From the NCBI GenBank assembly GCA_037349105.1, contig JAYJMM010000102.1, positions 2,046,001 to 2,110,000 on the forward strand: a DNA stretch of 64,000 nt, given 5' to 3'. Of this stretch, positions 10,174 through 53,222 are shown one piece after another; the first letter of the stretch is position 1; every line of letters starts with the position of its first letter. The translations under genes were made by a program, and so were the position numbers. The notes beneath the pieces are model-generated. The model saw only the letters and a list, made by a program, of their open reading frames with translations, did no database searches and had not been told where the DNA came from. Source of the DNA: Limnomonas spitsbergensis (Eukaryota; Chlorophyta; Chlorophyceae; Chlamydomonadales).

Positions 10174-13100
10174 TCAGCGAAGACCCAGCTGGTTGCCCCT
10201 GGGACCCCGCGCTTTGACCAAGGGCAGCAACGGTGGCAAGGTCCCGTTCAGCCAGCGCTCTACGAAGGACATGACCAGGCTGCCCGCCGCAGCAGCCCCG
10301 GAGCCCGCCTTCAGCGCAGCGACGGAGACGCCCGACTCGGATGCCCCCCCCGCTCCGCCGATGCTCGCCCGGCCCCGCGCGCCGCCGCGTGCAAACACAA
10401 GTAGCAGCCCGCCGCAGACGGTGGCCGCCACAATTAAGAGGAGCCATTCGGCGACCGCGAGCAGCCTGCGCTCTCTGGGCCACAAAGAGGCGACATCCGG
10501 CACGCCTGCTGCCCCTCCCCAGCTGTATCCAGTGGACACATGCGCCCCCGGCAGATGCTGCCGTCCCCCGGGGACAGACCCCCCTGCATCGGCCCCGCCG
10601 GCGGAGGAAAGTGCTTTCAAGCGGCTTGGCAGGCTCCTCCCCTGGCCAGGCATCCCGGCCGTGAGGCTGCTACTGGTGTCGCTGCTGCTGCTTGGCCACC
10701 AGCGGCGCTTCCTCCGCCTCCAGCGCGTCTGGCCCCCTGTCATCAGGTCGGGGATGCGAGAGGCCTCCACTAGCGCTGCACCAAGGGCCCAGCTCACCTC
10801 ACCGCCCCCTGGGTTCAGGTTTAAGGGTTACGAAGTAGGGCTCAGGGTTAAGGGTTGAGAGTTAGGGCTTAGGGTTGAAATGGGGCAATCAGGGGTCCGC
10901 CGGGATTAAGCAGCAGCAGCAAGGAAGGTTGGCTGTGCAGGAATCCACCTTGCGGGCCCCTTACAAGCATCCAGTCATCATTCTGTTCCTGCTTGCCTTT
11001 TCGCAGCTGTCGACGAGGGCCACAAGCGCACCCAGGCTGTTTGCGTCTCAGGTTTTCTAGGGTTGGGCGGCCAGCCTTATGTTTTGTTAAGCCCAGGCAA
11101 AATAAACAACTAATTCATGAGTACAAACTCGATCACCTTATTTGTGTTGCGTTACAAAGCCTACTGGTATGAGCCAGACTTATTTTTAGCGCGTTACAGC
11201 AACTACTCAGCAAGCGCAAAACCAACGGGTAGGGCTTGTTGCAGCATGCCCTGCCGCTTGGGCCATCGGCCGTAGGCGGCTTAGGGTTCGATTTTGATGG
11301 TGGTGGTGGTGTCTCAGTGGAGACCGCACAGCAACCTTCTAGGGGCGGCCAGGTGCACAACGAAGTAAACTCTGGGGCTATGGTAGCTCCTAGTGCCAAA
11401 CGGGTGGCTTCCTTAATCCACGCCTCAGGGCGCATCGTTTGCAAAAATTATTTATCATAAACTTACGCTGGGATTGTACATACAAAACAGTCATGAGGTT
11501 GATTGATTGGCTGGTGTTAGCTGCTTCTGATGGCGGGGGGAGTGGTCCAGACTTGAGTTTTTTTCAGAACGTCACATATCTCAGACCCGTGCAACATCCT
11601 CCCGCAACACCCACCTATACCGAGATGCTGCTGCTCCACTTTCAGTCCCTCTCGCAACAGCTGGATAACGTATGGCCCCCATAGGCAGTACCGCTCCAAG
11701 TTGACACTGCCCCCCAGATCCCGCAGGACATGCGGCCATCCTCGGCTGCAGAACCCTCTCGACTTCTCCAGCACCTGGCCGGGCGTCGGAGGTCACAGCC
11801 ACGAAGCAATGAAGGGGACAGCGGGGGAGGCAGCTGACATTATGCACTTCACAGTATTTTTAAAGCAAGTGCAGGGTTGGGCATTTGTATGTCCCGAGAA
11901 CAGAAGCCCGTGGGGCATAGCGCTGACAGGTTCAGGCATTCAAATGCTCTGAGTTTAATCCACCAAGGGGCTTGACGGGACACTGCAGACCCACACCTGG
12001 GCCGCAGGCCGCAGCCGGCCGCAGCAGGCTGACAGCCCTACACAGGTAACCATGCACACCCAACCCGCCTCGACTGGGCACGTGTACCTTAGAGCTCACT
12101 CTGGCATTATGGCCTTAGTGGGCTCCTTTGATATATATTATGCAATCAATCGGTTATGTAACTAAGTGAATAATTAAACCAGCTACAGAACCCGGTCAGG
12201 ACAGGTCTCTTAGTTAAAGCAAATCTCAGCCAGGCTTTGAATTAAAAGTACCGTAGCCCAACAGCCAAGAGCTAAGCTATATGCAGTCAGGCTTTGGTTC
12301 AAAGCTATCCCATACCAACAGCAAAAAACAAAGCCATATTCAGCAAGGCTTAGATGCAGAATGCCCCTAGCTAAAAGCAAAGCCACGGAAAAGGAGTTAA
12401 CCCTCAGCCTGCCTCCTGCCCCTGCCCCCCTGAGTCCTGACCAACCGCTAGGCATTGTCATTGCATTAGAGGGGCTTTCACACCACCGTGTCCCTGCTAC
12501 CACCCTGCCCACACTCTCTGATCCACACTTCCCCACACCTGCTGCATTGTCGCATTTGGTGGCAGCCAATGGCGCCTCCACACCCCCATGCCCCTGCTGC
12601 CACCCTGCCCACACTCTCTGATCCACACTTCCCCACACCTGCTGCATCGTCGCATTTGGTGGCAGCCAATGGCGCCTCCACACCCCCATGCCCCTGCTGC
12701 CACCCTGCCCACACTCTCTGATCCACACTTCCCCACACCTGCTGCATCGTCGCATTTGGTGGCAGCCAATGGCGCCTCTACACCCCCATGCCCCTGCTGC
12801 CACCCTGCCCACACTCTCTGATCCACACTTCCCCACACCTGCTGCATCGTCGCATTTGGTGGCAGCCTACGGCGCCTCCACACCCCCATGCCCCTGCTGC
12901 CACCCTGCCCACACTCTCTGATCCACACTTCCCCACACCTGCTGCATCGTCGCATTTGGTGGCAGCCAATGGCGCCTCCACACCCCCATGCCCCTGCTGC
13001 CACCCTGTCCACACTCTCTGATCCACACTTCCCCACACCTGCTGCATCGTCGCATTTGGTGGCAGCCAATGGTGCCTCCACACCCCCATGCCCCTGCTGT

Positions 13101-51000: not shown

Positions 51001-53222
51001 TGAATCCAGTCCACGGGGCATACGGTATCTAGCACATGATGTTTTATTTGGTGCCTTAAGTATTAACGCGGCATTGCCTGTCAACAACTGAAATACCAGT
51101 AGCGGTATAGAGACACGAATATTGTTAAAGTGCGCATCAGGCCTGCTTAAAGGGCCTGCGGGCAGCCACCACTGGGCCGATTGGGACCAAACCACTTGAC
51201 CGGCCGGGCTGTATCTGAAGTGTAGCTGAAGCACCTAAAAGGTACCGATGGTAATGTAGGGTCCCTCTCCCGTATTCGCTGCATACTTTCATGTGCCTGT
51301 ATCTGAATGAGGCTGGTGCTGCTCGAGCCTATGATCGCACCCTTGTACAGTTACCTCTGCTCTCTCCCATGCTTCTGCAGCACATCTATCTGGGCCTGTA
51401 TCCGGACGAGGCTGGTGCTGCTCGTGCCTACGACCGCGCCTTAGTGCGCCTGCGGGGCACCAATGCAGCCACCAACAGCGCCCTGGCAGAATATCGCACT
51501 GAGCTGGGCGAGTTCCACCAGATGCAGCAGGTGGGGGCGGTCAAGGCGAACAAGAGCAAAAGCCGGCCGCGTGTTTGCTCCCCCTGACATGTTCTCCCCA
51601 CCGGTATCTCATGTTTTGTCACAACGCATGACTGCACCGTGCACTGGACTCCACCCATTCCATAGGGTGCACCTATATTCCCCTCTCGGCCACTGGCCAT
51701 ACTTCTGGGAGAGCATGTTCCTGGGGTACGGCGCGGCAAGACTCCTCAAAATGAAGAAAAACAACTTTGGAGATTCCCGAAGTTATTCCCACCCCTTCTC
51801 GCCATGCCCCGCCTCCTCACCAGCTTTGCTTCTGGGAGTTGTTGCAGCAAGTTTGCTGAAAAACGATGAAAGTCAACTCTCACAAGATTCCCTTGTCATT
51901 CCCCTTTTTCACACAGGCAATGCTTCTGGGAGACGATGGGGCAAAATTTCTCAAACATGGCGTGGACAGCACTGACTTCGAGCACTGGATCAAGCATGGC
52001 ACCGCCGCCAGGGAGGGTGCAGATGGTGCTGAGACCACAGAAGCGAATGGGCTCTGGGGCTCTGATGTGGAGGCAGGAGGCGGGGGCGGCAAGGAGGCGG
52101 GTAGGGAGGAGGCCAGTGTGCTTCTGGTCCACCCCCAGGCGCCCGTTGCTGATGGTGGAGGTGCTGGCGGTAGCGGCGCTTGGTCTGATGGGCAGCTGCT
52201 GGGCGATTCCGCTCGTGTGCAGTCTGAGTAAATGTTGGCTGACCCCAGTGGTGGCAAGGTGGCGCATCGGTAAGTGTAAGGAGGGTATGATTAACATAAC
52301 TGCTGGTGTCTTCTGCAGAGGTTTGTGTTGGATGTGAGAGTTGTGATGGAAGTGGCTGGGAGCTAAAAGAGGTGTGTGCTTCTTTTTGCTGTGTCTGAGG
52401 TGGGGAATATTTTTTGCTCTACCTGCCATCTATCTGCTTGAGACCATCAATGGGCATGCGGAGAGAGCTACCCTCAGACAATTTCGCGGAATAGCTGATG
52501 TTGTTGTGATCACCAGGGAAGCACCTGAAATTAGGTGCATTGTGATGCATCAGGGACGGGGTGGGGAACTGAAGAGACACAAGGACTGAGCGTGACCCTA
52601 GCACCTGTTCAATACTTCTGTACATTGTGTGCATTTTGGGTGTTTTAGCTGTCTTTCTGTGTCCTTTATCTCGCTGGTGGCAACACATGCATCACTTTTA
52701 AAAGTCACCATCGGGCTTGTGCAAGCAATACCCTTGCTGCGGCGTTATGTCTACCCTTCAGAGTGGCAGAAAAGCCACCCTGCAGGACGGGCACGTCATG
52801 TTCATGTAGCTCCTTGACAATGTCTCCCTGCCTTCAATAAATATGTTGCATTTTCGTGATACCGGTACCCGTACACTGATATGCGATTGTAGCCAGTGCT
52901 GTGCTGGTGTGTCTGAGCTTGTGACCACTAAAGGACGGAGCCTTTTAAGGTTAAAGTCCTTGGCCTGATATGTTGGTTAGCACCCAAAGAAGTGATCACC
53001 AAAAAATGTGTTGATGTAATAACCAATGATTGCCGGTACCTGACAAGTAGACATGTTCCTCCACCCTGCAAATTACTCGCATAAACATATCCCCAAACAG
53101 CATAGCAGCCACTCAGCGTGCATAAACAAGGCCTAGGCATTTATAAGGTCTGATCAGATGTCCTTTGATCTTACCATACCGGTAGCACCAGGATATTTCA
53201 ATGGGTTTCCAGACTCGCCTTA
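45014..53222. repeat. Right arm of the large inverted duplication
   Basis: Reverse-complement homolog of 32222-41512. The inner edge is near CTTCTTTGTCAGACC (45014) and the outer edge near TTTCCAGACTCGCC (53222). It carries a complete AP2 gene on the plus strand. It lacks several hundred bases found in left introns 2 and 4, but has 651 bp more in exon 1. Confidence 0.9.
46497..52231 (+). CDS. Double-AP2-domain transcription factor, right copy
   Basis: Eight plus-strand exons: 46497-47864, 48386-49359, 49736-49799, 49993-50078, 50569-50647, 50810-50899, 51381-51530 and 51917-52231 (3126 nt, 1041 aa, all phases consistent). Exon 1 encodes a Ser/Ala/Gln-rich region of 456 residues. Exon 2 has a very long polyglutamine run (roughly residues 475-645). 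Repeat 1 of AP2 spans exons 2-4 (about residues 767-831), the linker (SLEELIMAVRRQSQ) exon 5, and repeat 2 exons 6-7 (about 865-930). Exon 8 ends early (ARVQSE then stop) compared with the left copy. The long Gln- and Ser-rich N-terminus would suit transcriptional activation, but that is inference. Exon boundaries in the two copies are identical, so both could be functional. Confidence 0.9.

Follow-up and report, generated by a model that had tools for sequence, protein, structure and literature searches.

Self-copies of splice junctions in introns of the green alga Limnomonas spitsbergensis and their probable origin in local tandem duplication

In a 64,000-nucleotide stretch of the genome of the volvocalean green alga Limnomonas spitsbergensis (positions 2046001-2110000 of contig JAYJMM010000102.1, here C102; assembly GCA_037349105.1, 260 Mb in 124 contigs), hereafter the window, short segments that span a splice junction recur in tandem inside the neighboring intron. 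They are found in genes for an apyrase, a CPP1-like protein and a double-AP2 protein, and again in an unselected gene on a second contig. The feature is real and is probably frequent in the genome. We attribute the copies, at a probability of about 0.8, to pervasive tandem duplication of the minisatellite type, of which they would be a by-product that a gene can bear at its junctions, since the site next to the exon can still be used.

Copies of exon edges in adjoining introns

Five genes were modelled in the window: an apyrase gene (- strand; PF01150, E 6e-49), the CPP1 gene (- strand), whose product has its closest match in Chlamydomonas eustigma at 75% identity, two AP2 genes (- and + strand), which are the arms of one inverted duplication, and a fifth gene, presumably pherophorin-like, modelled from frames and splice consensus and including two large exons without a Pfam match. 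These genes contain 31 introns, later 32, when a fifth CPP1 intron raised the number of junction sides from 62 to 64. Homologous proteins back the exon edges of CPP1 (by tblastn with the C. eustigma protein) and AP2 wherever they can be aligned, and likewise the alignable parts of apyrase; AP2 exon 1/2 and the exon 8 start lie outside the three AP2 homologues and were placed by reading frame, by splice consensus and by the match between the two arms. Up to 60 nt of each exon edge were aligned to the adjoining intron and the score was compared with those from 300 dinucleotide shuffles of the same intron, with a 600-nt limit in the run on 64 sides.

A copy of the exon's own edge was found at 9/64 sides. 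In the run on 62 sides (31 introns) no shuffle out of 300 reached the observed score at any of the nine (z 5.4-19), and the identical nine emerged from the 64. They represent seven distinct junctions, since AP2 exons 5 and 8 are counted in both arms; leaving out the second arm gives 7/50 sides. The seven are those named in a preliminary description of the window, and all carry a real copy. The best of the remaining window sides is the CPP1 exon 3 donor (3/300 shuffles as good), all others having at least 8/300; this donor copy (offset 116) and a similarly weak one at apyrase exon 7 (offset 77) were missing from that description. Against the introns of other window genes the nine positive edges reach a score of 27 at most, so no sequence family is common to many introns of the window. 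Both types of boundary are affected: the donors are those of apyrase exon 8, AP2 left-arm exon 2 and exons E and G of the pyruvate-kinase-like gene presented below, and the rest are acceptors. Copies had been said to occur in every multi-exon gene with long introns, which holds among the modelled window genes; the fifth gene, whose four introns measure 109-178 bp, has no junction copies.

The most regular case is in the apyrase gene:
13139..13240, - strand: exon 8 (GPTDSGETGR...NATMQQ), from the gene model and homologous proteins
13138-11775, - strand: intron 8, from the gene model
12479..13167, - strand: array over the exon 8 donor, from Tandem Repeats Finder (TRF) and unit comparison (z 13.7, 0/300 shuffles)
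13872..13930, - strand: weaker copy of the donor of exon 7, which ends at 13986; the copy is 77 bp downstream and lacks the GT, 9/300 shuffles as good; also flagged as a self-matching pair

The array comprises 6.9 units of 100 bp that are 97% alike, and it is young. Each unit consists of the last 29 nt of exon 8 (end 13139), the donor CAG/GTGTGG and intron sequence, with one mismatch in the exon part of the last unit. All six extra donors are intact, their last exon-like bases being 13039, 12939, 12839, 12739, 12639 and 12539, and read-through into the first copy meets a stop. Elsewhere in the window, outside modelled genes, positions 9038-9237 hold a two-unit 100-bp tandem repeat, 97% identical, which shares the unit length of the apyrase array and has a different sequence.

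In CPP1 the acceptor side is the one mainly affected:
29718..29785, - strand: exon 3, acceptor at 29785, placed by tblastn with the C. eustigma protein
29863..30215, - strand: three copies of the exon 3 acceptor edge, 96, 193 and 393 bp upstream, each with CTGCAG/G
29587..29643, - strand: weaker copy of the donor of exon 3, which ends at 29718; the copy is 116 bp downstream and retains the GT, 3/300 shuffles as good
28875..28978, - strand: exon 4, acceptor at 28978, placed in the same way
29048..29181, - strand: two copies of the exon 4 acceptor edge, one about 100 bp upstream and lacking the AG, the other 211 bp upstream with TAG in the aligned position

The spacing of the exon 3 copies is compatible with a single array of about 97 bp. 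At exon 4, where one copy had been described, there are two, and they include little intron flank (2 intron nt in the extended alignment; 10/11 and 5/7 nt in a later comparison).

The two AP2 genes lie in an inverted duplication (window 32223-41514 and 45004-53221) whose arms are 79-94% alike by segment and about 3.5 kb apart:
37564..37634, - strand: copy of the donor of left-arm exon 2, which ends at 37876; the copy is 267 bp downstream and has GCACTC in place of GTATGT
50353..50442, + strand: copy of the right-arm exon 5 acceptor (exon 5 at 50569-50647), 166 bp upstream, acceptor TTACAG intact
35503..35598, - strand: left-arm counterpart of the exon 5 copy (exon 5 at 35384-35306), 164 bp upstream, acceptor intact
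51265..51341, + strand: copy of the 5' part of right-arm exon 7 (exon 7 at 51381-51530), located 99-101 bp upstream and with CTG in place of the acceptor CAG
51677..51861, + strand: two copies of the acceptor of right-arm exon 8, which starts at 51917; they lie 221 and 94 bp upstream, and neither retains the AG
33734..33787, - strand: copy of the acceptor of left-arm exon 8, which starts at 33549; it lies 206 bp upstream and lacks the AG
34645..35305, - strand: left-arm intron 5, 661 bp long and holding several tandem copies in its interior (right-arm intron 5 is 162 bp, 50648-50809)

The presence of the exon 5 copy and of one exon 8 copy in both arms makes them older than the duplication, barring spread by gene conversion. 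The exon 7 copy is whole in the right arm and survives in the left arm only as a remnant after a 40-bp deletion within a stretch otherwise more than 99% identical. The segment from intron 6 to exon 7 is about 99% identical between the arms, which suggests a recent conversion. Agreement in introns 1-3 amounts to 90-92% of aligned columns. The exon 2 copy sits in a left-arm segment that is absent from the right arm. Introns 2, 4 and 5 are 376, 490 and 162 bp long in one arm, as against 831, 1315 and 661 bp in the other, and the differences consist of repeat-filled intron segments. For intron 5, either the left arm gained sequence or the right arm lost it.

Outside the young array, the copies are 65-87% alike to their source over 38-88 bp. 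Spacing, given earlier as 90-270 bp, ranges by our measurement from 94 to about 394 bp. Counting the nearest copy, several junctions have 94-116 bp; values of 77, 164-166, 267, 295 and 401 also occur, and with these we rejected the idea of a unit length specific to about 100 bp. The recurrence of 94-116 bp at many junctions in the window and on the second contig, though intronic minisatellites have many other periods, is possibly due to chance.

A second contig, and junctions compared with intron interiors

A 200-kb sample of another contig (C38, positions 2773001-2973000) was taken before its content was known. Thirty-five open frames, 31 from C38 and 4 from the flanks of the window on C102, were submitted to Pfam. 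They were chosen with the help of codon scores from a home-made gene finder with window-trained parameters, which recovered 22-23/31 window introns; on self-training it drifted to low-complexity DNA (0/31 introns after five rounds), elsewhere it chained noise, and its gene lists are excluded from all counts. The search identified chorismate synthase on C38 (PF01264, E 8e-62 and 2e-31), a pyruvate-kinase-like gene (PF02887, E 9e-6, narrowly short of the cut-off; PF00224, E 0.006, far short of it) and a possible subtilase (PF00082, E 9e-4, also below its cut-off); the other matches were weak or to mobile elements. Exons on C38 were placed with Escherichia coli proteins as probes and splice consensus, helped by splice matrices from the window introns. 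The pyruvate-kinase-like gene (sample positions 43492-67960, - strand) spans at least 24 kb, with introns of up to about 8-10 kb if no exon was missed.

In this gene 6/14 sides have a copy within 1000 nt (0/200 shuffles as good), and 5/14 have one within 600 nt at z 5. The copies of exon A lie at about 113 and 226 bp; that of exon B, counted among the positive sides, is weak and adjoins a simple CTGACC repeat. Chorismate synthase has no copy at any of its 7 sides, its last donor being matched by 1/200 shuffles. Two sides of the subtilase frame were kept outside the rate counts: the donor has a copy 70 bp downstream (2/200 shuffles as good), and the other side has none.

The preliminary description had proposed a process common in this genome, either intron growth or duplication of exon ends. 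Copies prove to be abundant in the interiors of introns too. In the window, 42/300 intron-internal 60-mers have a local copy, vs 9/64 junction sides, and on C38 the figures are 143/300 vs 5/21; the 60-mers overlap and are non-independent, they were judged on 40 shuffles vs 100 for junctions, and C38 introns longer than 2 kb were trimmed to the 1000 nt adjoining exons. Examples within apyrase introns, from TRF and self-pairs, are the following:
14190..14390: 36-bp minisatellite in intron 6, off the junctions
17545..17753: 71-bp minisatellite in intron 4
18061..18191: 31-bp minisatellite in intron 4

At a score cut of 30, copies are found for 10% of 920 intron-internal 60-mers, for 1.1% of 281 exon-interior 60-mers (intron copies) and for 10/62 junction sides. 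Tandem arrays with a period of at least 20 make up 7.7% of a 104-kb sample and 28% of the 200 kb from C38. Among those on C38 are a 67-bp unit repeated 240 times (16 kb) and a 78-bp unit repeated 118 times; the same sample holds a long open frame with a zinc knuckle. Three window segments (22074-25400, 42591-44480 and 53840-54605) are diverged repeats, mutually related in both orientations, and are probably remains of mobile elements; the single frame scanned in them (22057-22806) had no Pfam match.

That introns commonly grow by local duplication is upheld, on the basis of seven genes, by the abundant intron-internal tandem copies, the unselected C38 gene and the differences in intron length between the AP2 arms. 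Specificity for exon ends is not, interiors being duplicated as often or more. One could imagine a process that targets exon ends or splice sites, for instance through the repair of breaks at splicing-linked R-loops, with intron growth as its result. In its favor, seven distinct junctions are hit across three gene families and another gene adds five sides; two green algae have also been described, in passages of PMC3887541, as having an excess of tandem repeats close to the ends of introns. The counts of self-matching pairs point the same way: 15 are at junctions and 22 internal (n=37), or 9 and 14 after grouping into families by the author (n=23). However, those 22 of 37 pairs also mean that junction-free intronic arrays are common, and the high rate in interiors extends to random 60-mers, which at the same cut have a local copy in 17% of cases in the C102 flanks and 39% on C38 (reversed controls 3.7% and 16%). 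We gave more weight to the direct comparison of rates because pairs from the same array are non-independent and the family grouping is subjective. A process directed at exon ends therefore seems unlikely to us; a moderate excess of copies at junctions may still exist.

Orientation, splice signals and a proposed mechanism

Over all 85 sides, at score 30, there are 16 direct matches, 1 inverted match and none in the reversed control, as expected of head-to-tail copies. The reciprocal event, an intron edge copied into its own exon, was seen at 0/85 sides at this score, short exons giving low power. The bias toward direct copies and the lack of intron edges in exons are to be expected if tandem duplication occurs and purifying selection then acts on the exon. 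In 7/8 extended alignments, CPP1 exon 4 being the exception, the match continues past the junction into the intron, which identifies the source as genomic DNA and not cDNA. Spacing is regular in the apyrase 100-bp array, at CPP1 exon 3 (96/193/393) and at exon A of the pyruvate-kinase-like gene (about 113/226); elsewhere the match is shorter than the spacing.

We envision the following course of events. Tandem duplications of genomic DNA, with copies about 70-400 bp apart, would arise across introns and other non-coding DNA, presumably through slippage, unequal exchange or repair synthesis. When a duplicated unit happened to span a splice junction, the gene would acquire two donors or two acceptors. 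Provided that the spliceosome kept to the exon-proximal site, the protein would remain unchanged, the extra copy would become intron, and the intron would be longer by one unit. The intronised copy would then be free to drift and might lose its AG or GT.

The state of the splice signals bears on two other explanations. Twelve distinct older copies could be judged, with the two AP2 arms treated as one and both weaker donors taken in. AG or GT is kept in six (AP2 exon 5, the CPP1 exon 4 copy at 211 bp and, at CPP1 exon 3, the three acceptor copies and the donor copy) and lost in six (AP2 exons 2 and 7, two at AP2 exon 8, the CPP1 exon 4 copy at 100 bp and that of the apyrase exon 7 donor). If the copies were alternative splice sites maintained by selection, one would expect such cases as the six intact extra apyrase donors, the intact acceptors in both AP2 exon 5 copies and those in the three CPP1 exon 3 copies, which together with the overall 6/12 lend the idea some appeal. 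Yet the signal is gone from the other half of the copies, a young array like that of apyrase would have intact sites without selection anyway, and stops would cut the reading frame short if translation ran on into the first apyrase copy or if the AP2 exon 5 copy, with its in-frame stop, were used. We consider selected alternative sites very unlikely. The same in-frame stop argues against the copies being remnants of tandem exon duplication, that is, decayed alternative or mutually exclusive exons. Some copies do take in much of an exon (77/142 nt at exon D of the pyruvate-kinase-like gene, about 58/150 nt at AP2 exon 7), but both splice sites of an exon are present in no alignment made, and the apyrase units contain only the last 29/102 exon nt; an origin from whole exons appears equally improbable.

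Several observations weigh against by-product duplication as we propose it. Most matches are shorter than their spacing (53/166, 70/267 and 88/394 bp, for example). The apyrase array alone displays a clean one-unit duplication, AP2 exon 7 coming close to one, and for the rest decay, later insertion or non-adjacent duplication must be assumed. The junction share of self-matching pairs exceeds the 17.6% expected under uniformity (nominal P 0.0009 for 15/37 pairs and 0.012 for 9/23 families). These values would become 0.11 for pairs and 0.23 for families if junction copies were detectable twice as long; such a detection bias, with junction copies persisting longer because their exon part is frozen, was considered and rejected, since the exon and intron parts of the pairs are equally alike (400/486 vs 320/392). 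At score cut 30, two window stretches outside the modelled genes have rates of only 3.0% and 3.7%, which implies that duplication is uneven along the genome. Finally, gene models throughout rest on homology and splice consensus.

It may be, although we would put the odds somewhat below even, that intron length in this algal lineage reflects a running balance between local tandem duplication and repeat-mediated deletion, both ignoring exon borders, with the consequence that a sizeable share of junctions (9/64 and 5/21 sides) carry decoy copies of themselves. If so, the alga would offer a natural system, outside animals, in which to watch intron growth and competition between splice sites. The copies illustrate how an intron can lengthen without change to the protein, and each one that spans a junction amounts to a natural experiment on how the spliceosome chooses among like neighboring sites. 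Relatives of Chlamydomonas reinhardtii have conspicuously long introns, for which the driving mechanism is left open in the passages available from PMC8226300; duplication that ignores exon borders would be a concrete one.

Relation to known systems

No earlier report of junction-spanning arrays in green algae was found among the matches listed from the open-licence literature. The nearest algal precedent comes from C. reinhardtii and Volvox carteri, in which the density of tandem repeats is highest in introns, more so near intron-exon junctions (from parts of PMC3887541). The present alga, likewise volvocalean, also has repeat-rich introns with repeats near intron ends; in the sections of that study at hand the repeats are described as motifs within introns, whereas the units reported here include exon sequence. 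Introners, dispersed families that multiply intron-related sequence (as outlined in part of PMC9860276), are similar in that intron-related sequence is multiplied. They differ in that each algal copy resembles its own junction, no family being common to the introns of other window genes. In potato, a duplication spanning a boundary gave rise to a new intron (excerpts of PMC4974935 and the review PMC3443670). There, as here, the duplicated segment covers the 3' end of an intron and the 5' end of an exon; the potato duplicate became a new intron and exon, whereas the algal copy stays inside the old intron.

The closest parallel is with the “mirages” of amphioxus, minisatellite-like tandem copies over an intron/exon boundary that are documented, in the portions of PMC3087553 and PMC3902484 available, for globin, Adh3, TnC and PGBD5 genes. 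In these sources mirages occur at 5' and 3' boundaries, have units of 10-160 bp with many intact splice signals, differ in length between haplotypes and leave regular splicing undisturbed as judged by reverse transcription PCR. The tandem copies of the alga similarly include exon edge, splice junction and intron flank (little of the latter at CPP1 exon 4), and they too affect donor and acceptor boundaries alike. In contrast to the animal case, many of the copies in this volvocalean green alga are old and partly degraded, and where amphioxus has length differences between haplotypes, the single algal haplotype has paralogous AP2 arms that differ. The occurrence of amphioxus-style mirages in so distant a lineage suggests that their cause is a high rate of tandem duplication and not a trait specific to lancelets.

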